Shown here piece after piece: positions 5,546 through 40,388 of a stretch of 40,548 bases of DNA. A model generated the notes under the pieces. It was not told the DNA's origin, did not search any database, and was given only the letters and a program-made list of their open reading frames with translations. The DNA lies in the NCBI GenBank assembly GCA_003577105.1, contig QEUQ01000034.1, positions 1 to 40,548 of the forward strand, given 5' to 3'. Positions within the stretch are counted from its first letter, which is position 1, and each line of letters opens with the position of its first letter. Source of the stretch: Acidobacteriota bacterium. GTDB lineage: Bacteria > Actinomycetota > Acidimicrobiia > ATN3. The position numbers were made by a program, and so were the translations under genes.

Positions 5546-5962
5546 TTAAAGCGGTAGGTCGAGCGACTCGAGCAGCTCATCTACTCGCCGGGCAATTTCA
5601 TCTCGAATCGGCCGCACATCTGCAACGCCCTTGCCGGCCGGGTCGTCGAGCTTCCAGACCTCGTAGCGTTTGCCGGGGTAGAAGGGACACTCATCACCAC
5701 ACCCCATGGTGATGACCACATCCGATGCCCTCACTGCGGCGTCTTCCAGCTTCTTGGGCTTCGCACCCGATGCGTGCAAGTCAATCCCGATCTCGGCCAT
5801 CGCCTCGACGACAGCGGGATTAATCTCATCAGCTGGTGCTGTGCCCGCAGATCGCACAACAACGCGGCCATCGCCCTTCTCGGCAAGGAGTGCAGCTGCC
5901 ATCTGCGACCGCCCTGCATTGTGGACGCACACGAAGAGCACTTCAGGTATGTCTTCAGGCAC
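5546..5962 (-). CDS. arsC: arsenate reductase, thioredoxin-coupled low-molecular-weight phosphatase type
   Basis: This 138-residue ArsC reduces arsenate to arsenite through a Cys relay. The phosphatase-like loop CVHNAGRS provides Cys12 and Arg18. Cys88 and Cys92 (TMGCGDECPFYPG) match the second and third Cys of the thioredoxin-coupled family, and KLDDPAG provides the usual Asp-Pro. GTG 5962 is chosen because GGAG lies 7 nt upstream and the start overlaps the aquaporin stop by 8 bases; the longer frame to 6016 would run through the aquaporin end. The partner upstream is a MIP channel rather than ArsB or Acr3, so the arsenite produced is probably released through that channel. Confidence 0.92.
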   Translation of the reverse strand: MPEDIPEVLFVCVHNAGRSQMAAALLAEKGDGRVVVRSAGTAPADEINPAVVEAMAEIGIDLHASGAKPKKLEDAAVRASDVVITMGCGDECPFYPGKRYEVWKLDDPAGKGVADVRPIRDEIARRVDELLESLDLPL

Positions 5963-6713
5963 TGGCCGACTCCGATCTCGGATGTGGGTAGAAGAACTTG
6001 ACGAGTGCGAACGCAATTACGGTGCCGATCACCTGCATTGCGACAAATCCGGGCACAGATGCCGGGGCGATCCCGGAAAATGAGCCGGTCAAGGTCCGGG
6101 CCATAGTCACCGCCGGATTCGCAAAGCTAGTCGAGGCCGTGAACCAGTAGGCGCCACCGATCCACCCGCCGACGGCAAATGGAAGAACGCCAGTCCTATT
6201 GGTGCGCACACAACTCTGGATCAGAAGCAACAAGCCGACAGTGGCAATCACCTCTGCGATCCAGAGTCCGGATGACGAACGGGTCTTGGTGGAGACCTCA
6301 ATTGCGGGGAGTTCGAACATGACGTTGGCAATGACTGTCCCCGCGCATCCCCCTGCAATTTGCACTGCAATATAAAGAGCGGCATCACGCGTCGAAATAG
6401 TGCCGAGCATGCGATCGAGCAGAGTAACTGCAGGGTTGAAGTGCGCTCCGGAGACCTCCCCAAACATGAGGATGAGCCCGGCCAGCGCGACTGCAGTTGC
6501 TGCAGCGTTCTCGAAAAGTTGGAGTCCGGTGTCGGCAGTCGAGAGGCGGCTTGCCATGATTCCCGAGCCGACGGCTGCTATCAAGAGGAATGCAGTTCCG
6601 AGGGCTTCGGCAGCGAGGCGGCGGGCCAGGTCGAGGCGCATGCCACCGGTTCCGGTTTCGATCTCGTGCGCGAGATCGTGTTCTGCGGCGGTGAGCTCAC
6701 CTTCCACGGTCAA
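5955..6713 (-). CDS. MIP-family aquaporin/aquaglyceroporin, probable arsenite exit channel
   Basis: This 252-residue membrane channel has six membrane spans and both NPA half-helices: HFNPAVTLLDR in the first half and SFANPAVTMARTL in the second. It overlaps arsC by 8 bases and is clearly co-transcribed with it. In Sinorhizobium meliloti an aquaglyceroporin (AqpS) replaces the arsenite pump in the ars operon and lets arsenite made by ArsC flow out; the gene order here suggests the same role. TTG 6713 has an AGGA tract upstream, while ATG 6641 (MRLDLARRLAAEAL) is the alternative and would leave a shorter N-terminus. No ArsR gene is adjacent. The 33-bp repeat at 6738-6770 lies just upstream and may carry its control site. 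Confidence 0.88.
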   Translation of the reverse strand: MTVEGELTAAEHDLAHEIETGTGGMRLDLARRLAAEALGTAFLLIAAVGSGIMASRLSTADTGLQLFENAAATAVALAGLILMFGEVSGAHFNPAVTLLDRMLGTISTRDAALYIAVQIAGGCAGTVIANVMFELPAIEVSTKTRSSSGLWIAEVIATVGLLLLIQSCVRTNRTGVLPFAVGGWIGGAYWFTASTSFANPAVTMARTLTGSFSGIAPASVPGFVAMQVIGTVIAFALVKFFYPHPRSESASA

Positions 6714-6737
6714 GTCCTATCTGGGTTCGGCGAGCGA

Positions 6738-6770
6738 GGTGACTCTATCACCAGGTGTCCTAGGGGCCGT
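6738..6770 (+). repeat. 33-bp direct repeat, copy 1
   Basis: This copy is identical over 33 bases to 7812-7844 in the same orientation. The repeat opens with the palindrome GGTGA-N5-TCACC and ends with CCTAGGGGCCGT. Weaker similarity extends about 30 bases to the left. The copy sits upstream of the divergent aquaporin-arsC operon; the two copies bracket the MNT-HEPN module. Confidence 0.9.
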
Positions 6771-6955
6771 TCATGCGAGCTCGCTTGTAGAGTATGTGTT
6801 TGCGGGCAGGAATTTCGACCTGCTATTGGCCGTGGCGCAAGACCGGACGATCCGGCCAGCTCCAAACCAAAACCCCGAAGAAAATCGAGGTCTATGCCGC
6901 CGTTTCCGAGGCATCGGCCGTGGACAGGGCTACTGTTGCGCAAAGCGAGGTGAGT

Positions 6956-7288
6956 ATGGGAGAACAGAGAGGTTCGGGCAGTCGCGGATTGGCGACGGTT
7001 GTCGAGCGGCTCGTCGAGGTCTATTCGCCGTTGCGCGTCTACCTGTTTGGGTCAATGGCAAGGGGCGACCACGGTCCTGACAGCGACTTCGACATTCTCC
7101 TGGTCGTGCGAGACGACGCGGACCCAGAGCACCGTCGCAGCCGTTTGGCGTACCGGGCACTCTGGGAGACCGGAATCGCTGCGGATGTCATCGTAGTCAC
7201 TGAGAGCTATTTCGAATCGCGCCGCCGGGTGGCTACATCGCTCCCTGCCACGGTGTTGCGCGAGGGTAAGCTGCTGCATGCCGCCTGA
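6956..7288 (+). CDS. MNT-type nucleotidyltransferase antitoxin of an MNT-HEPN module
   Basis: This 110-residue minimal nucleotidyltransferase has the signature YLFGSMARGDHGPDSDFDIL: Gly32-Ser33 of the GS motif and Asp44/Asp46 of the metal site. The next gene, overlapping by 11 bases, is a HEPN-domain protein. In characterised MNT-HEPN systems the nucleotidyltransferase adds AMP groups to a tyrosine of the HEPN ribonuclease and so silences it. ATG 6956 is chosen because a GAGG tract sits 7 nt upstream and the family signature begins about 30 residues later; the frame is open back to 6794 but unsupported. It differs clearly from the other MNT at 3423-3734. Confidence 0.88.
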   Translation: MGEQRGSGSRGLATVVERLVEVYSPLRVYLFGSMARGDHGPDSDFDILLVVRDDADPEHRRSRLAYRALWETGIAADVIVVTESYFESRRRVATSLPATVLREGKLLHAA

Positions 7289-7691
7289 CATCGAAGTTGT
7301 TGCCGAGGCGCGCGCCTGGTTTTCCCGTGCAGCGCAAGATCTGCGGGCGGCCGACTTCGAAATGACTGCAGTTCCACCGCTGACCGCGGATGTTGCTTTT
7401 CATGCGCAGCAAGCGGCCGAGAAGGCGATGAAGGGATTGCTGACACTCCACAGTGTCGTTTTCCGCAAGACCCACAGTCTCGTTGAGCTTGGCCAGGCTT
7501 GCGCGAGCGTCGAGCCCGATCTCGAGCCGCTCCTGATCGAGGCCGCGCCGCTAACGGAATATGCCTGGCGCTATCGCTATCCAGGGGAACCGGACGAGCC
7601 GCTCGTAGATGAAGCGATGGCGGCTCTGACGACGGCGCACCGAGTTTACGAGTCTCTGCTTCGAGTCCTTCCCGAAGCTGTCAGGCCATGA
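7278..7691 (+). CDS. HEPN-domain protein, probable ribonuclease toxin
   Basis: This 137-residue all-helical protein is of the COG2250-like HEPN family. Typical blocks are AWFSRAAQDLRAADF at the start, FHAQQAAEKAMKGLL in the middle and VVFRKTHSLVELGQA, which holds the Arg and His expected to form the active site. The C-terminus EYAWRYRYPGE contains tyrosines of the kind modified by MNT partners. It overlaps the MNT gene by 11 bases, so they form one operon. The pair lies between two 33-bp direct repeats. A stem-loop follows at 7762-7781. Confidence 0.88.
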   Translation: MPPDIEVVAEARAWFSRAAQDLRAADFEMTAVPPLTADVAFHAQQAAEKAMKGLLTLHSVVFRKTHSLVELGQACASVEPDLEPLLIEAAPLTEYAWRYRYPGEPDEPLVDEAMAALTTAHRVYESLLRVLPEAVRP

Positions 7692-7761
7692 AGTTACTTC
7701 AATGCTGCGTGGGGCTTAGCGCTTGCGGGCGGCCGACTTCGCGGTTGTAACGCGTCACGGA

Positions 7762-7781
7762 GGTCTCACGCGGATGAGACC
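7762..7781 (+). terminator. stem-loop downstream of the MNT-HEPN operon
   Basis: GGTCTCA (7762-7768) and TGAGACC (7775-7781) form a perfect 7-bp stem with a 6-base loop, 70 bases after the HEPN stop. There is no T-run, so intrinsic termination is uncertain. Confidence 0.4.
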
Positions 7782-7811
7782 GCCCTATCGGGATACCGGT
7801 GAACCGAGCGC

Positions 7812-7844
7812 GGTGACTCTATCACCAGGTGTCCTAGGGGCCGT
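7812..7844 (+). repeat. 33-bp direct repeat, copy 2, in the promoter region of the PLP gene
   Basis: This copy is identical to 6738-6770. Immediately after it, TAGGCT at 7846-7851 lies 7 bases before ATG 7859, which suits a -10 box with a leaderless start. The GGTGA-N5-TCACC palindrome at 7812-7826 is then about where an operator or -35 region would be. Confidence 0.85.
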
Positions 7845-7858
7845 GTAGGCTCCCATCC

Positions 7859-9109
7859 ATGCTTCCAGAACAAGGTATGTCCAAAGATGACGTGATCGCG
7901 GCTCTGTCAGCCATGCGGGTCAATGATGTCCGATGGCAAGACGGAAAGACCTTCGGCATGATCTACGACGCCGGGCCCGAAGTCCACGAGGTCATAGAGG
8001 CGGTCGCGCCGCTTTTCGTCCACGACAACGCGCTAAACACAATGGCATTTCCTTCGCTCGGGCAGATCCAGCGCGAGGTCGTCGCAGCGACTGCTTCTCT
8101 TCTGCACGGTCCACATACCGCGTCGGGTTTCATGACTTCGGGAGGAACCGAGAGCATCTTGATGGCGGTCAAGTCCGCTCGCGAGCGAGGTCGTAGTGAG
8201 CGGGGGATCGGCGCACCGAACCTGGTCCTCGCAGAGAGTGCACATGCCGCGTTTCACAAGGGTGGGCATTACTTCGGCCTCGAGATTCGCAAGGTGCCGG
8301 TACGTGAAGACTTCAAGGCAGATGTTGGCGCAATGGCTAACGCCGTTGATGAGAACACCGTTCTCGTGGTGGGTTCGGCGCCCCAGTACCCTCAAGGCGT
8401 CATTGATCCGATCAACGAGATCGCGGCGCTCGCAGCCGACGTTGGCGCAAACATGCACGTTGACGCTTGCATGGGCGGATTCGTGTTGCCCTTCATGGAA
8501 ATGAACGGCGAAGAGCTACCGCCGTGGGACTTCCGTGTCGAGGGCGTGACATCGATCTCGGCTGACATCCACAAACTCGGCTACGCACCGAAGGGCGCGT
8601 CGGTGATCGTGCATCGCACCAAGGAGCTCCGCAAGTACCAGACTTTCGTCTTCGACGGCTGGCTGGGCGGCTTCTATGCATCCCCGAGCATGCAGGGTAC
8701 GCGGGCCGGGTTGCCGATGGCTCTCGCTTGGGCAGTAATGCACACCCTTGGGATCGAGGGATATCGGCGCCTGGTAGCTGAGACGATCGAAGCGAGGCGA
8801 ACGATGGTTGCCGGGATTCGAGATATCGAAGGGGTCGATGTTCTCGGCAAGCCTGAGGCCCAGATCGTCGCCATTGCTGCGGCACCCGGCTTCGAGGATC
8901 CAGTCGACATCTTCGCCGTCGGCGACGCAATGCGTGAGCGAGGCTGGTTCCATGACAGGCAGGGACCGCCCGACTCATTGCATGCGACGGTGAGTGCGGG
9001 AAACGTGATGGTGATCGGTGATTACCTCCGAGATCTACGCGAATCAGTTGCCAACATGCTTGGCGAGCGAGCATCTGACCGTTCCACCAACTACGCAACA
9101 CTCGAGTAG
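7859..9109 (+). CDS. PLP-dependent lyase/decarboxylase of the sphingosine-1-phosphate lyase type
   Basis: This 416-residue fold-type I PLP enzyme is of the group II decarboxylase superfamily. Landmarks are TSGGTES (residues 93-99, phosphate binding), AESAHAAFHKG (His stacking on PLP), VDACMGGF (Asp202) and SADIHKLGYAPKGAS with the Schiff-base Lys239. The HKxGxxxKG layout and overall pattern match the S1P lyase and archaeal tyrosine/aspartate decarboxylase branch. The substrate could be a phosphorylated long-chain amino alcohol or an amino acid; I cannot decide from sequence. An ACAD10-like phosphotransferase follows after 7 bases, suggesting a kinase-lyase pair. ATG 7859 fits the leaderless promoter; ATG 7877 is an alternative. 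Confidence 0.88.
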   Translation: MLPEQGMSKDDVIAALSAMRVNDVRWQDGKTFGMIYDAGPEVHEVIEAVAPLFVHDNALNTMAFPSLGQIQREVVAATASLLHGPHTASGFMTSGGTESILMAVKSARERGRSERGIGAPNLVLAESAHAAFHKGGHYFGLEIRKVPVREDFKADVGAMANAVDENTVLVVGSAPQYPQGVIDPINEIAALAADVGANMHVDACMGGFVLPFMEMNGEELPPWDFRVEGVTSISADIHKLGYAPKGASVIVHRTKELRKYQTFVFDGWLGGFYASPSMQGTRAGLPMALAWAVMHTLGIEGYRRLVAETIEARRTMVAGIRDIEGVDVLGKPEAQIVAIAAAPGFEDPVDIFAVGDAMRERGWFHDRQGPPDSLHATVSAGNVMVIGDYLRDLRESVANMLGERASDRSTNYATLE

Positions 9110-32446: not shown

Positions 32447-33787
32447 TCAGCGAGTGGCGAACTTGTCAGGCCTGAGGGCCGCAACCAAGGCGGATGCCGC
32501 AGCACCGGGGTCGGGCGCCGATTCAATGGCCCTGACGACAGCGATCCTCGTAGCGCCCGCTTCAGCCACAAAGGCAGCAAGTTCGACATCGATGCCTCCG
32601 ATCGCGAAGAAGGGCAAGCTCGAAATCTGCGCCGCGTAGCTAACAAGAGAAAGCCCGGTACCGGGCCGCCCCTTCTTGGTGGGTGTTGCGTAGACCGGAC
32701 CAACTCCGATGTAGTCGGCACCGGAATCCTGAGCAGCTTCGATCTCATGTTCGGAGTGCGTGGAAAGGCCGATGAGCAATTCGGATCCGACTAGATCCCG
32801 CACGACTCTTGGGGCAAGGTCATCTTGGCCCACGTGCACGCCGTCGGCACTTGCGGCCAGGGCTATGTCGGGGCGGTCATTGACCAGGAAGAGTGCACCT
32901 GCTTCAGCTGTCAGATCGCGCAGGCGCTTTGCCGCTTCGAGGATGCGCCTGTCAGAAGCTTCGTGCTCGCGCAACTGCACGATTGATGCTCCGCCCGCTA
33001 TCGCCTGACTTGCGGTGGCGCAGATGTCGGAGTCCGGTTCTTGCGCGGAGCAGATGAAATACAGACTTGCCTTCTCAAGTGCCTCTCGCCTTGTCATCTC
33101 TGCCGCGCATCCGCCCGCAACTGCTCTGACGATTTCGAGGCTGTCGCCCTCATTGAGAGTCGTCGAGGCCAGCTCTGCCCTGGTCAACGCAACTCCGTTC
33201 AGCTCCGCGATGCATGATTCGACTGGCAGCGATCGTGACTCGATGAAGCTGGCAACTGTCAGCCCAGGATCGATTGAATAGGCCGAGCCATTAGCGGTGA
33301 TCTCGATCTTCTCACCGCGTTCGAAGTCCCCGGATCTGTCATCGTTTGAGGTCGGAGACTCTGCGAGATCGTCGCGGATCTCTTGCCACGCTCGTTCTGC
33401 TTCGCCCCACTCTCGAGCAGCTTGGAGTGCGAGGTTCCCCGTGAATTCGGCGATCTCGCGTGCTTCTGCCGAGCGGAGCGCGGCAGTGTGCGCTTGTTGT
33501 TCGAGGCGCCGCCGCGTCTCTCTGGGTAGAGCTGACGCGACTGTCGCTTCAGCCATCGACACCGCGTCTTCGGGGTCGTCGGTCAGATTTGCCTTGGCCT
33601 GGATTGCATCGGCCTCCTCGGCGATTCGCCACGCTTCCGCAGCTTCGCGAGCTTGGTCGGCTGCCTTGATGAGCGCTTCCCATGAGGCTTTGGCTGCGCC
33701 GGCCGCATAAGCAGATGCCTCTCTGGCCTTGGCAGTGCAATTCATAGCTTCGGTCGGTCCGCAGCCCGGATCCTCGGTATCAGGCAC
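32447..33787 (-). CDS. three-domain thiamine protein: helical domain + ThiS + ThiE
   Basis: This 446-residue protein is continuous in one frame. Residues 12-145 form an Ala/Glu-rich helical domain of unknown role (SWEALIKAADQAREAAEAWR, LALQAAREWGEAERAWQEI). Residues 159-226 are ThiS, the ubiquitin-like sulfur carrier (IEITANGSAYSIDPGLTVASF, VALTRAELASTTLNEGDSLEIV), ending in Gly-Gly at 225-226. Residues 231-446 are ThiE, thiamine-phosphate synthase (SIVQLREHEAS, FLVNDRPDIALAASADGVHVG, GVGPVYATPT, FFAIGGI). ThiS normally needs a free Gly-Gly end for thiocarboxylation; here Cys227 follows, so processing would be required. In ThiE the usual pyrophosphate Lys of QxRxK is His. GTG 33787 is used; TTG 33796 is an alternative. 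It follows thiH by about 12 bases. Confidence 0.9.
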   Translation of the reverse strand: MPDTEDPGCGPTEAMNCTAKAREASAYAAGAAKASWEALIKAADQAREAAEAWRIAEEADAIQAKANLTDDPEDAVSMAEATVASALPRETRRRLEQQAHTAALRSAEAREIAEFTGNLALQAAREWGEAERAWQEIRDDLAESPTSNDDRSGDFERGEKIEITANGSAYSIDPGLTVASFIESRSLPVESCIAELNGVALTRAELASTTLNEGDSLEIVRAVAGGCAAEMTRREALEKASLYFICSAQEPDSDICATASQAIAGGASIVQLREHEASDRRILEAAKRLRDLTAEAGALFLVNDRPDIALAASADGVHVGQDDLAPRVVRDLVGSELLIGLSTHSEHEIEAAQDSGADYIGVGPVYATPTKKGRPGTGLSLVSYAAQISSLPFFAIGGIDVELAAFVAEAGATRIAVVRAIESAPDPGAAASALVAALRPDKFATR

Positions 33788-33799
33788 GCTACTCAAACC

Positions 33800-35915: not shown

Positions 35916-37325
35916 GTGGGTACTCGACATGACTTGGTGATCATCGGCGGCGGCCCAGCCGGTTATGCGGCGGCGCTATCGGCTGCGTCCTCAGGTCTCG
36001 GCGTCTGCATCGTCGAGAAGGGACGAATAGGGGGAGTGTGCCTGCACAGAGGCTGCATACCGACTAAGCAGCTTCTTGAGACGGCGTCGATATTGCAGAA
36101 GCTCAAGAGGGCCCCGGAGTTTGGGGTGGTTCCTGCGGGGGGTGGCGACCCATCGGTTGACTTCGGTGCAGCCATGGCCCGAAAGGTCTCCACCATTGAG
36201 TCACTTCACAAGGGTGTCGTCTCACTGCTAAACAAGCACGGGGTCGAGCTTGTCGACGGAATCGGCCGTTTGGCGGCCGGCGGTGTCGAAGTCTTGGTTG
36301 ATAACCGCGTCGAGCAAGTCCTCGAGGCCGGCTCGATTCTTCTCGCTACTGGTTCCCGCCCGAAGTCGATTCCCGGGTTTGAGACTGATGGTGAGCGCCT
36401 GATCACCTCAAACGAAGCTCTGGAGCTGTCCGAAATTCCGGGACAGATCGCGATCATTGGAGCCGGCGCAATCGGGGTCGAGTTCGCCAGCCTCTTCGCG
36501 GGGTTGGGTTCCAAGGTGAGCTTGATCGAGGCGATGCCCTCGATTCTTCCCGGCGCGGACCCCGAAATCTCGACCTATCTGAATCGCATGCTCAAACGTT
36601 CCGGCGTTTCGATCTACACGGCGGTTTCGGGTCTTGCTACCGAACCGTCAGGGGCGGGTTCTTTGGTCACATTTGATGATTCAAGAGGTGAGGCGCTCCG
36701 GATCGAAGTGGATCGTGTGCTCGTTGCAACGGGGCGCAAGCCCTCGGGAGATGAGCTGGCAAGCGGCGGAAGCGGGCTAGGTGTTGACGCGCGCGGATAC
36801 GTTGAGGTCGACCCGAGGACCCTCGCCACCAACTTGGATGATGTGTACGCCGCCGGCGATGTCATTGACACCCCAGCTCTCGCCCATGTCGCGTTTGCCG
36901 AGGGCGCAAGGCTGGCCGGACTTCTAACCGGGGAGTCGCCACAGCCGATCGACTACGCCAAGGTCCCTTGGTGCATTTACTCGCATCCCGAAGTTGCGTT
37001 TGCGGGCATGACCGAGGATTCCGCTCGTGAGGCCTTTGGCGACGATTTGATTGTTGCCCGTCACCGGTTTGGCGGGCTGGGCCGGGCACTGATTCTCGGC
37101 GACCCCGAGGGCATGGTCAAAGTCCTGTCGGTCAGGGGCGGACCGATTGTCGGAGTTCACATTGTCGGCGCCTGGGCCTCGGAGTTGCTCAGCCCCGGAT
37201 ATCTCGCCACCAACCTTGGTCTGAGTCCCGAAGCTATTGCTCCGCTTATGCAACCGCATCCATCTCTTTCGGAGGCTTTCGGCGAGGCGGTGAGATCACT
37301 CGCCGGAATTCCGCTTCACGGTTAG
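35916..37325 (+). CDS. lpd: dihydrolipoamide dehydrogenase (E3)
   Basis: This 469-residue flavoenzyme reoxidises dihydrolipoyl groups with NAD. The N-terminal FAD site is VIIGGGPAGYAAALSA; the redox disulfide is Cys42/Cys47 in GGVCLHRGCIPTK. The NAD site is IAIIGAGAIGVEFASLFAGLG, the second FAD motif is DDVYAAGDVID, and the base pair His448/Glu453 lies in QPHPSLSEAFGEA. GTG 35916 is preceded by AAGGAG with 5-base spacing. It is the first gene of a lipoate-centred cluster with an E2-like protein and the LipB-LipA fusion, and the only plainly intact 2-oxoacid dehydrogenase component here; no E1 gene is seen. Confidence 0.95.
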   Translation: MGTRHDLVIIGGGPAGYAAALSAASSGLGVCIVEKGRIGGVCLHRGCIPTKQLLETASILQKLKRAPEFGVVPAGGGDPSVDFGAAMARKVSTIESLHKGVVSLLNKHGVELVDGIGRLAAGGVEVLVDNRVEQVLEAGSILLATGSRPKSIPGFETDGERLITSNEALELSEIPGQIAIIGAGAIGVEFASLFAGLGSKVSLIEAMPSILPGADPEISTYLNRMLKRSGVSIYTAVSGLATEPSGAGSLVTFDDSRGEALRIEVDRVLVATGRKPSGDELASGGSGLGVDARGYVEVDPRTLATNLDDVYAAGDVIDTPALAHVAFAEGARLAGLLTGESPQPIDYAKVPWCIYSHPEVAFAGMTEDSAREAFGDDLIVARHRFGGLGRALILGDPEGMVKVLSVRGGPIVGVHIVGAWASELLSPGYLATNLGLSPEAIAPLMQPHPSLSEAFGEAVRSLAGIPLHG

Positions 37326-37407
37326 ATTTCATCTCCATGAACGTCGCTGTATCGAGCCGGGGTAGTCTCGCAGCTGTCGCGGACTCGAAATCTTTCAAGG
37401 AGCGCAC

Positions 37408-38712
37408 TTGACAACGACAGTGACAATGCCCGTGTTGGGCGAGGGTATACCCGAAGGAAGGGTCCTCCGCTGGCGCGTCAGCGAGGGAGAGCGGGTTCAA
37501 GCGGGCGACGTCTTGTGTGATGTGACTGACGGGGAGCGAATCTCGGAGGTCGTCTCTCCCGGCGACGGCTGGCTTGAGTTGCGCATGGTCGTCGAGGACC
37601 AGGTTGTGCCGATTGCAGCGGCACTCTGCCGTATTGGGGATGTGCAACCCGACTCGTTCGCCGCCGCCGTGACCTCTGCAGTTGGCCCGGTTGATAGCTT
37701 AGAAACACCTCGGGCGACTTTCCGCATGCAACCGCCCGCCGGTGCCGAAGGGCGATCAGAGCCTCTTCACGCGCAAGTTTCAGCCGTGTCAAACGTACCT
37801 CCGCCAATGGAGAGCCGGCGCCTTGAGGCGCACGCATCGGAGGCCGTTGCCCCCCCGCCGACACCAGCGCCCGCAATTCACGCGCATGTTTCAGAGGGAG
37901 CAGATGAAGCGGAGCTAGCACCTCACCCACCTGACAAGCCGCGCGCTCGGGTGACCGCGGCGGGGGAGGAGCGCCTTGCGGGGTCTGGCGGTCTTGACGA
38001 GCTGCGCCCTGATGGCAATCGCAGGGGAGTTCTCTCTCCAGTGGTTCAGGGACTTGCCGCCGAATACGGCGTGAGCCTTGAGAAGATCATCGATGCCGCC
38101 GACGACGCGCACGGTCTTCCTGGCTTCGCCGCAGTGGAAGTCGGTTGCGACAAGATTCTTGACGCACTTGGTGTGCATCGAGCCGACTTTCTCGCCAGTA
38201 CCGGCTACGAGCTCTCACTCACCTCCTTCTTAGCACTGGCCGTCTGCAATTCGCTTCTCGAGTTTCCTTCGCTCAATGCCGGACTTGATCCGGCTAGTGG
38301 AAAGCTCACAGCTATGTCGCAGGTTGCGCTGAGAGTGGTGCGATATGGGGGAGGGCGCGCCTTGGATTCACAGGTGATCGAAGGCGCGGAGCGTCTGACC
38401 CTGAGGGCACTGGAGCGACATTGCCACGAGGGTGGCGGCGAGGCCGCGGCAAGCTTTGTGCTCGAAGACTACGGGCCGGCTGGAATCTCGATTGCGGTTC
38501 CACCCTTCGACGCCTCGACCGCTGCCGTTCTTGCAGTGGGTGCTCCGCATCCTCAGGTCGAACTGGACAACGGTTCGCCCGCGCAAGCTCTGAAGGTTAC
38601 GGCCGCGCTTACCTGGTACGCCGGTCTCGTGCCTACCGCCGATGCCGCCGGGTTCCTTGGGGGGCTGAAGGAGCGAATCGAAGGCTGGGACTGGGTCACG
38701 CTGGCCGGCTGA
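37408..38712 (+). CDS. E2-like protein (dihydrolipoamide acyltransferase fold) lacking lipoyl lysine and catalytic residues
   Basis: This 434-residue protein has the domain order of a 2-oxoacid dehydrogenase E2. The lipoyl domain (1-77; TVTMPVLGEGIPEGRVLRW, EGERVQAGDVLCDVTDGE) has Gly42 where the lipoyl Lys of the TDK motif should be. A Pro-rich linker follows. A peripheral subunit-binding-like segment (about 215-255; LSPVVQGLAAEYGVSLEKI) lacks the GTGxxGR core. The acyltransferase domain (about 260-434; SLTSFLALAVCNSLLEFPSLNAGLD) ends with WYAGLVPTADAAGFL in place of DHRxxDGAxAAxFL, so the catalytic His and Asp are Ala405 and Pro409. It is probably a structural or regulatory pseudo-enzyme. 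TTG 37408 follows AAGGAG by 5 bases. The frame is intact, so it is not an ordinary pseudogene. Confidence 0.85.
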   Translation: MTTTVTMPVLGEGIPEGRVLRWRVSEGERVQAGDVLCDVTDGERISEVVSPGDGWLELRMVVEDQVVPIAAALCRIGDVQPDSFAAAVTSAVGPVDSLETPRATFRMQPPAGAEGRSEPLHAQVSAVSNVPPPMESRRLEAHASEAVAPPPTPAPAIHAHVSEGADEAELAPHPPDKPRARVTAAGEERLAGSGGLDELRPDGNRRGVLSPVVQGLAAEYGVSLEKIIDAADDAHGLPGFAAVEVGCDKILDALGVHRADFLASTGYELSLTSFLALAVCNSLLEFPSLNAGLDPASGKLTAMSQVALRVVRYGGGRALDSQVIEGAERLTLRALERHCHEGGGEAAASFVLEDYGPAGISIAVPPFDASTAAVLAVGAPHPQVELDNGSPAQALKVTAALTWYAGLVPTADAAGFLGGLKERIEGWDWVTLAG

Positions 38713-38714
38713 AA

Positions 38715-40388
38715 GTGCTTGCGCCCACCGGAGTCGAATTCAAACCAGACTTCCTGCACATCCGTTGGATGGGGCGGGTCGCCTACCAAGAGGCGCTGGA
38801 TCTCCAGCGAGCGCTCGCCGATTCAGTGAGAGCTGGCAGGTCCCCTGGACATCTGCTCCTTCTCGAGCACGACCCTGTGTACACATATGGAGCACATGCG
38901 GTCGCCGAAAATTTTCTTGTTGACCCAAAGCTGCTGATCGAGGGGGGTGCTCTCGTCATCGAGGCCGATCGGGGCGGTGACGTGACTTTTCACGGTCCCG
39001 GGCAGCTGGTCGCATATCCGATCCTGGCGGTCGAGCGATTCAGCTCGCGCAGATGGGTCTCGGTTCTTGAGGCCTCCGTACGAAGGACTCTCAATGAATT
39101 CGGAATTGATGGCGTCACAGAACCCGAGTATCCGGGTGTCTGGGTGGGCGGGAAGAAGATCTGCGCAATTGGCGTAAGGATCAGCGGTGGAGTATCAACT
39201 CACGGTCTCGCTCTGAACGTGACAACTGACCTTTCGCGTTTCGACGCGATTGTTCCTTGCGGTATCGAGGGCAGGGGTGTTACCTCGATCAAGTCGGAAC
39301 TGGGCGAGCGGATCTCCATGGAGCGAATCGCTCGCTCATTGGCCGCTAGCTTCGCAGCCGAGATCGGTGGTGTCGGGTCAAGCTTTGAGGCCGCGCCATG
39401 GCCTCGATCCGATGGCAACGACACCGACGAGCCTGGCGAGGCAGATCGCCAAGAGATCACAAACTGGCCCGATCGAAGGCCGCGTGCTGCCGATGGAACA
39501 CTTCGCCCCGACTATGTGCGGGCGGCTGCCCGGTTCGACAAGGGCTATCGCTCCGTGATGTCAGTGGTGAGGGCAGGGGAGCTAAACACCGTTTGCGAAG
39601 AGGCGAAGTGCCCGAACATTTACGAGTGTTGGGCCGACGGAACGGCGACTTTCATGATTCTCGGAGACCAATGCACGAGGGCGTGTGGCTTCTGCAACGT
39701 CTCGACATCGCGACCTGGAGCTGTTGATTGGGATGAGCCTGATCGGGTTGCTCGTGCAGCCGCAGCCCTCGGACTCAGTCATGTGGTCGTCACCTCGGTC
39801 GCACGCGACGATCTCAGTGATGGGGGAGCAGCGGCATTCGCGGCAACGATTCGTGCGGTCAAGAAGTCCCTTGCCGGCGGGTCGGTTGAGGTGCTCATCC
39901 CAGATTTCAAAGGTGACAAGAAGTCGCTCGAGACCGTTCTCGCTGAACGCCCAGATGTCTTGAATCACAACGTCGAAACGGTGCCGCGCCTTCAGCGCTT
40001 GGTTCGCCCATCTGCCTCCTATGCCCGGTCGCTTGCAGTATTGGCGCGAGCGACCGGATCCGGTCATGGGATTGAGACCAAGTCCGGAATCATGCTCGGC
40101 CTCGGCGAGGACGAGTCTGAGGTGTCCTCGGTAATAAGTGACTTGGCAGCGGTTGGTGTCTCAATCCTCACAATTGGTCAGTACCTGCAGCCGACGGCGG
40201 CGCATCTGCCTGTTCAACGTTGGTGGCGACCCGATGAATTCGATGAGCTGGCTGACTTCGCGCGGCGAGCCGGAATCCGTGCCGTCGAGTCTTCGCCGCT
40301 GGTGCGGTCCAGCTATCGCGCCCACACTTCGCATCAAAGACTTGAGAGAATGAACCATCCGGTCGAGCTGCAGATCCAGGCGAGGTAA
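38715..40388 (+). CDS. LipB-LipA fusion: octanoyltransferase plus lipoyl synthase
   Basis: This 557-residue single chain joins both enzymes of lipoate assembly. Residues about 1-225 are LipB, which moves octanoate from acyl carrier protein to the target domain: DRGGDVTFHGPGQLVAYP, catalytic Lys in GGKKICAIGVR (147-148) and the nucleophile Cys182 in AIVPCGIEG. Residues about 250-557 are LipA, which inserts two sulfurs. The auxiliary cluster Cys are 294, 299 and 305 (CEEAKCPNIYECW), the radical SAM Cys are 320, 324 and 327 (CTRACGFCN), and the C-terminal RSSY is at 531-534. The linker (226-250) is Asp/Glu-rich, with no stop codon and no good internal start. GTG 38715 begins 2 bases after the E2-like stop. 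Confidence 0.93.
   Translation: MLAPTGVEFKPDFLHIRWMGRVAYQEALDLQRALADSVRAGRSPGHLLLLEHDPVYTYGAHAVAENFLVDPKLLIEGGALVIEADRGGDVTFHGPGQLVAYPILAVERFSSRRWVSVLEASVRRTLNEFGIDGVTEPEYPGVWVGGKKICAIGVRISGGVSTHGLALNVTTDLSRFDAIVPCGIEGRGVTSIKSELGERISMERIARSLAASFAAEIGGVGSSFEAAPWPRSDGNDTDEPGEADRQEITNWPDRRPRAADGTLRPDYVRAAARFDKGYRSVMSVVRAGELNTVCEEAKCPNIYECWADGTATFMILGDQCTRACGFCNVSTSRPGAVDWDEPDRVARAAAALGLSHVVVTSVARDDLSDGGAAAFAATIRAVKKSLAGGSVEVLIPDFKGDKKSLETVLAERPDVLNHNVETVPRLQRLVRPSASYARSLAVLARATGSGHGIETKSGIMLGLGEDESEVSSVISDLAAVGVSILTIGQYLQPTAAHLPVQRWWRPDEFDELADFARRAGIRAVESSPLVRSSYRAHTSHQRLERMNHPVELQIQAR

Follow-up and report, generated by a model that had tools for sequence, protein, structure and literature searches.

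The gene that lies between lpd and lipBA in the genome studied here is related to the dihydrolipoamide acyltransferase (E2) of 2-oxoacid dehydrogenase complexes; it still codes for a protein and is under constraint as one, although this constraint is no longer that of an E2. Judged by its sequence, it is a real, lineage-specific and catalytically empty E2. In the reading that we favour, to which we give a probability of roughly 0.57, this E2 was freed from catalysis after the loss of E1 and would persist, still translated, as what is left of a dehydrogenase complex that was dismantled, within an operon that is still needed.

The window, that is the whole stretch of DNA analysed, is one entire 40.5-kb contig of a 2.87-Mb genome that is about 95% complete and assembled in 104 contigs. 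The locus contains the following features (window positions):

35916-37325, + strand: lpd, dihydrolipoyl dehydrogenase (E3), 469 aa (TIGR01350, 422.9 bits against a cut-off of 408.8)
37397-37402, + strand: Shine-Dalgarno sequence AAGGAG, 5 nt ahead of the E2-like TTG start (sequence)
37408-38712, + strand: E2-like gene without catalytic residues, 434 aa (Pfam, alignment)
37408-37638, + strand: lipoyl-domain fold, residues 1-77, Lys replaced by Glu43 (codon 37534-37536) (PF00364, alignment, model pLDDT 93-98)
37639-38031, + strand: linker, predicted disordered, with motifs LHAQVS, RLEAHAS and KPRARVT in common with the E2 of the sister genome G001 (alignment, low pLDDT)
38032-38091, + strand: first helix only of the subunit-binding domain (PSBD; LSPVVQ..EYGVSLEKI), second half deleted, conserved Arg replaced by Gln214 (E3_binding below cut-off, alignment)
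38122-38709, + strand: acyltransferase remnant, N-terminal segment deleted, DHRAFDG replaced by YAGLVPT (Ala405 codon 38620-38622, Pro409 codon 38632-38634) (PF00198, alignment, Foldseek)
38710-38717, + strand: E2-like TGA (38710-38712) and lipBA GTG (38715-38717), separated by 2 nt (sequence)
38715-40388, + strand: lipBA, octanoyltransferase LipB fused to lipoyl synthase LipA, 557 aa (TIGR00214, 161 bits; TIGR00510, 324 bits; both above cut-off)

The E2-like gene is a single uninterrupted frame of 434 codons (37408-38709) homologous to E2, from a TTG start to a TGA stop, and is thus complete, as an earlier note on this DNA had described. That note also held that the lipoyl, subunit-binding and acyltransferase regions were all kept, which proved true of the first but only partly of the others. 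The Pfam profile Biotin_lipoyl (PF00364) matched residues 4-74 above its curated cut-off (E=2.3e-7) and 2-oxoacid_dh (PF00198) matched residues 244-427 (E=1.3e-5, 25.2 bits against a cut-off of 23); E3_binding covered just 19 residues (209-227) below its cut-off (E=0.11, 13.2 bits against 23.7). Alignment showed that in-frame deletions have removed the second half of the PSBD (GTG..GRIT..DV), which a functional E2 carries, together with the first 25 or so residues (R..A..M motif) of the acyltransferase domain. In the ungapped alignment with the G001 orthologue and intact relatives, the column of the lipoyl Lys, which functional E2s carry in the DK turn, is occupied by Glu43; Gly42, to which this column had been assigned before, stands in the column of the preceding Asp. 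The assignment of Ala405 and Pro409 to the catalytic His and Asp was right: DHRAFDG of the orthologue aligns without gaps to Y404-A405-G406-L407-V408-P409-T410, so that the HxxxDG motif of functional E2s is lost. A set of 28 intact relatives shares 88 conserved columns, of which the E2-like protein keeps 33, has altered 46 and has lost 9 by deletion. The protein has the sequence homology and the 2-oxoacid_dh fold of an E2 acyltransferase (PF00198; Foldseek), and it retains the C-terminal WDW found in E2s of the lpd-E2-lipBA clusters of Acidimicrobiia.

Such an accumulation of losses could reflect an assembly or sequencing artefact, in the form of frameshifts or a chimeric contig, as the genome is in 104 contigs and this stretch is without independent confirmation. 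However, a single frame holds all the homology: in a six-frame comparison with 30 E2s, no significant match (none below E=0.1) was found in any other frame and hence no sign of a frameshift error. Moreover, the gene differs from intact E2s by substitutions and in-frame deletions scattered along its length, and the lpd and lipBA neighbours are the expected syntenic genes. We consider an artefact very improbable.

The only other genome of the order that was compared (G001) has a complete and normal cluster, lpd-E1a-E1b-E2-lipBA, whose E2 carries the lipoyl site STDKVE and DHRAFDG. The E2-like protein aligns with this E2 over nearly the full length (35% protein identity), including linker motifs that lie outside any domain (LHAQ.S, RL.AH.S and KP.ARVT), which indicates that the two genes are orthologues and not distant paralogues. 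Since the one sister genome has a normal orthologue, the E2-like gene arose by loss from a functional E2. At this level of protein identity, saturation of the silent sites between the two genes is to be expected. No close relative with the dead form was found in an exact-peptide scan of 84,980 genomes, the order's only other genome having a normal E2. The plasmid collection gave four partial matches, each over less than 45% of the query, and a literature search for E2s without a lipoyl site, or for LipB-LipA fusions, returned nothing on this case.

For comparison, 80 LipBA loci were fetched; the named organisms among the best LipBA relatives suggest that the source genome probably belongs to the class Acidimicrobiia. 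In Acidimicrobiia the usual order is lpd-E2-lipBA, with E1 genes present or not, and nearly all E2s are intact. In five loci (L057, L059, L065, L067 and L075) the E2 is gone and lpd abuts lipBA, and the genomes concerned have no E1 gene; in two others (L062 and L070) the E2 is gone from between lpd and lipBA and the gap is filled by other genes. In L062 this gap (5557-7940) holds a minus-strand pair that we read as a 586-aa membrane protein with a Gly-rich C-terminal tail and a 207-aa LemA-like protein. Two further Acidimicrobiia MAGs, L088 (6858-8036) and L094 (6840-8036), have cluster E2s with the motifs DHRVCDS and DHRVCEP, respectively; these E2s keep the lipoyl Lys, the subunit-binding domain and the catalytic His, both genomes have E1 genes, and the L094 branch is accelerated in the tree. 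They possibly represent an earlier stage of the same loss. As a separate observation, a record titled Bifidobacterium breve (L054) has an Acidimicrobiia-type lpd-E2-lipBA cluster, and its name looks wrong.

In these clusters, an intact E2 goes with an E1 in the genome. In a comparison of 22 related genomes, several of them close relatives and hence non-independent, and covering cluster E2s rather than E2s elsewhere in the genomes, E1_dh genes occurred in each of the 14 genomes that have their cluster E2 intact, and a true E1 was absent in seven of the eight genomes in which the cluster E2 is absent or dead, the source genome included (six of the seven whose cluster has no E2). In the source genome, the search with E1_dh (PF00676) matched only a transketolase, leaving the E2-like protein without the E1 partner of a functional E2, although an E1 could be missing from an assembly that is about 95% complete. 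Searches of the same genome for a second E2 returned, with PF00198, just the E2-like gene and a 275-aa lone acyltransferase-like protein and, with PF00364, a biotin carboxylase and weak or efflux-like matches besides the E2-like gene. Since the searches of the genome yielded neither an E1 nor a further E2 with a lipoyl domain, the proposal of the earlier note that the protein is a scaffold or regulator of another lipoyl complex is not supported. Its alternative proposal, a partner of E3, fares no better, the E3/E1-binding domain being half deleted.

Two proteins met in these searches deserve separate mention. The 275-aa protein (L013:7071-7898, minus strand, contig C68; 56 bits with PF00198) has SYDERVEDG in place of DHRxxDG, and is thus a further E2-like protein in which the catalytic His is missing; its gene adjoins an amidase-like gene. 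A 782-aa AceE-like protein (L138:347-2695, minus strand, contig C34) was considered as an AceE-type E1 and rejected: its match begins at about AceE residue 76-93 and scores 198.8 bits against a cut-off of 859.9, as a distant paralogue and not an equivalog. This thiamine-diphosphate enzyme is encoded beside genes of amino-acid and aldehyde metabolism.

The source genome encodes a NifJ-type pyruvate:ferredoxin oxidoreductase (PFOR; 1195 aa, 1764 bits), and among 24 genomes searched it alone reached the cut-off of this family, one other having a partial gene. A 2-oxoacid:ferredoxin oxidoreductase pair is also present. Glycine cleavage is intact, with GcvH retaining its lipoyl Lys (LEASKSHEEIY), GcvT and both parts of GcvP (GcvPA and GcvPB); Lpd and LipBA thus have a clear substrate without the E2.

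Both neighbours of the E2-like gene are intact. Lpd, whose gene has an AAGGAG ribosome site ahead of its GTG start, keeps the redox Cys pair (CLHRGC) and the C-terminal HPHPSLSE motif and shares 46% identity with its syntenic counterpart in G001; LipBA is 51% identical to the fused LipBA of that genome. The match to the LipB-LipA fusion spans both halves in many loci of Acidimicrobiia and other Actinomycetota, so the fusion is a class-wide trait; the closest NCBIfam fusion model, LplA-LipA, scores below its cut-off.

Trees built for each gene of the operon on one set of 15 taxa showed how fast it had evolved. In them, the E2-like branch measured 1.7-1.8 against 0.43 for the G001 E2, about four times its sister's, lpd showed no acceleration (0.69 against 0.68), and lipBA gave 0.89 against 0.52. 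From the branch ratios, we estimate the excess divergence of the E2-like gene at about 1.1-1.4 replacements per site. The earlier note had reasoned that normal orthologues in sister species would refute its inference by showing a recent decay. This holds in part: the only sister genome does have a normal orthologue, but recent decay finds no support, since the branch is long.

An ordinary young pseudogene, its frame still open by chance, would fit the loss of all reactive residues and the accelerated branch, as well as the clean loss of E2 that this cluster has undergone in other members of the class. However, neutral simulations to 1.1 replacements per codon, run with the G001 gene as a proxy for the ancestor, gave a mean of 6.5-12.6 stops, and at most 1 run in 200 was free of them. 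The gene shows neither a disrupted frame nor an eroded coding signal: its codon statistics match those of its neighbours, and the codon-position pattern and the ribosome site are intact. A young pseudogene is therefore improbable.

Keeping the frame open is not by itself sufficient to account for the protein. Simulations that selected for the open frame only, again with a proxy for the ancestor, were run until conserved columns were kept as rarely as observed, a calibration that assumes neutral loss of those columns; GC1-GC2 was then about 0.11+-0.03 against 0.217 observed. With three G+C settings tried and 300 runs for each, none attained the observed value, and the hydrophobic fraction was about 0.37-0.38 against 0.429 observed. 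Since composition and hydrophobic content both exceed what frame-only drift yields, some selection acted on the protein. Conserved hydrophobic, Gly and Pro positions were kept more often than polar ones (26/48 against 7/31, Fisher P=0.0096), a bias that comes partly from codon effects. In contrast, E2-conserved columns were kept at 43% against 33% for other columns, showing that E2-specific constraint is nearly gone. The earlier argument for selection on structure thus stands insofar as simple neutral drift is contradicted by the simulations, but not in its premise that every domain was retained, given the in-frame deletions.

These data raise the possibility of a true pseudoenzyme, in which lipoyl-like and acyltransferase-like folds would have taken on a new structural job, for example by forming a trimeric scaffold for Lpd, GcvH or LipBA or by serving one of them as a chaperone, and the fold would be under selection. 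The open frame with its retained coding composition and hydrophobic content, the better conservation of structural positions and the gene's own ribosome site all agree with this idea, as do the folds predicted with confidence for the lipoyl and acyltransferase regions. In an AlphaFold2 model built on an alignment of 22 cluster E2s, pLDDT was 93-98 in the lipoyl fold, the linker was disordered, and block-mean pLDDT of the acyltransferase remnant was about 67-96, mostly above 80; Foldseek matched the model to E2 cores with a target-normalised TM of 0.7-0.8. However, the input alignment consisted mostly of normal E2s, so the model indicates fold compatibility and is not an independent proof. Also to be set against a pseudoenzyme are the slight excess of kept E2-conserved columns, the half-deleted interaction domain, the failure to find a second E2 or an E1 that it could serve in the genome, and the failure to find a near relative with the same dead form. 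Overall we regard a pseudoenzyme as possible but rather unlikely. Its more specific version is more tentative still: a bacterial E2-derived protein without lipoyl Lys, E1/E3 tether or catalytic residues may act as a structural or assembly partner of stand-alone Lpd, GcvH or LipBA in organisms where PFOR replaced pyruvate dehydrogenase. Tethering of E3 or E1 by the E2-like protein is unlikely.

The junction with lipBA offers another reason for the frame to stay open. The lipBA gene has no Shine-Dalgarno sequence and its GTG lies 2 nt downstream of the E2-like TGA; in relatives, E2 and lipBA commonly overlap by 4 nt. Gene pairs spaced -8 to +10 nt have been treated as translationally coupled or predictive of coupling, a range that includes the +2 nt observed here, and gaps of about 20 nt nearly abolish coupling (PMC10666635). 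From this arrangement, lipBA is probably translationally coupled to the E2-like gene, in which case a stop inside the latter would starve lipBA of translation.

The relic that we favour would have arisen as follows. The gene would descend directly from the E2 of a pyruvate or 2-oxoacid dehydrogenase in an lpd-E2-lipBA operon. The lineage would have lost E1 and oxidised pyruvate with the NifJ-type enzyme, so that selection on the chemistry of the E2 ceased; the lipoyl Lys, half of the PSBD and the catalytic His and Asp would then have gone. The lpd and lipBA genes would be kept because the glycine cleavage system needs them, and the E2-like frame would remain open and protein-like because it has its own ribosome site, its product must stay soluble, and ribosomes probably restart 2 nt further on at lipBA. 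We infer the order of these events, the reality of the coupling at this locus and the absence of a partner-binding role. Coupling requires only an open frame, yet composition and hydrophobic content surpass frame-only drift; coupling thus fits the open frame but does not alone explain the retained composition, and selection for a soluble fold, or some other use, is possibly at work as well. A clean deletion could also keep the coupling, as where lpd abuts lipBA, and an E1 may be missed in a genome of this completeness.

Elsewhere in the window, ThiS and ThiE form one frame (32447-33796, minus strand; PF02597, PF02581). ThiS normally requires a free C-terminal Gly-Gly; here the Gly-Gly, at about 33116-33111, ends AVAGG, which runs without a stop into CAAEMTRREAL of ThiE. 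Candidate explanations for the activation of the fused ThiS would be processing or an internal start, or else a sequence error.

All together, the locus would show a 2-oxoacid dehydrogenase complex caught in the middle of its dismantling, in which E1 has disappeared, E3 and lipoate synthesis are retained to serve glycine cleavage, and the E2 is emptied but open. The E2-like gene would be the intermediate between a working and a deleted gene, and the path of the loss can be followed because relatives show both its start, the intact cluster, and its end, the deleted E2. Should the dead protein be selected instead, it would be an E2-derived pseudoenzyme of an unusual kind, with none of the known E2 interaction sites.

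Among known systems, the E3-binding protein (E3BP, or protein X) of eukaryotic pyruvate dehydrogenase invites comparison. E3BP is defined by a complete, E3-specific subunit-binding domain and resides in a living E2 core. The E2-like protein might be a non-catalytic subunit of this kind, having the same ancestry and domain order, a dead acyltransferase domain and an adjoining E3 gene; E3BP is likewise a catalytically inactive E2 paralogue (PMC10156792), and both proteins are E2-derived with an inactive acyltransferase-like core domain. The PSBD is full in E3BP, whereas here its second half is deleted, the conserved Arg is Gln214 and the E3-specific domain is thus not present; moreover, no E2 core that the protein could join was found in the genome. 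An E3BP-like role is accordingly highly unlikely. The E2s of the Acidimicrobiia lpd-E2-lipBA clusters are closer: they agree with it in syntenic position, in domain order, in linker motifs and fold, in the WDW and in homology that runs in one frame over nearly the whole protein; in contrast to them, the E2-like gene lacks the lipoyl Lys, half of the PSBD, the N-terminal acyltransferase segment and the catalytic His and Asp, and no E1 was found beside it in the genome. The L088 and L094 E2s share the position between lpd and lipBA and a damaged catalytic motif, but have the Lys, the PSBD, the catalytic His and a genomic E1. Finally, the L057, L059, L065, L067 and L075 clusters resemble the locus in having kept lpd and lipBA in genomes devoid of E1, and differ in that the E2 is cleanly absent there, whereas its frame persists here.
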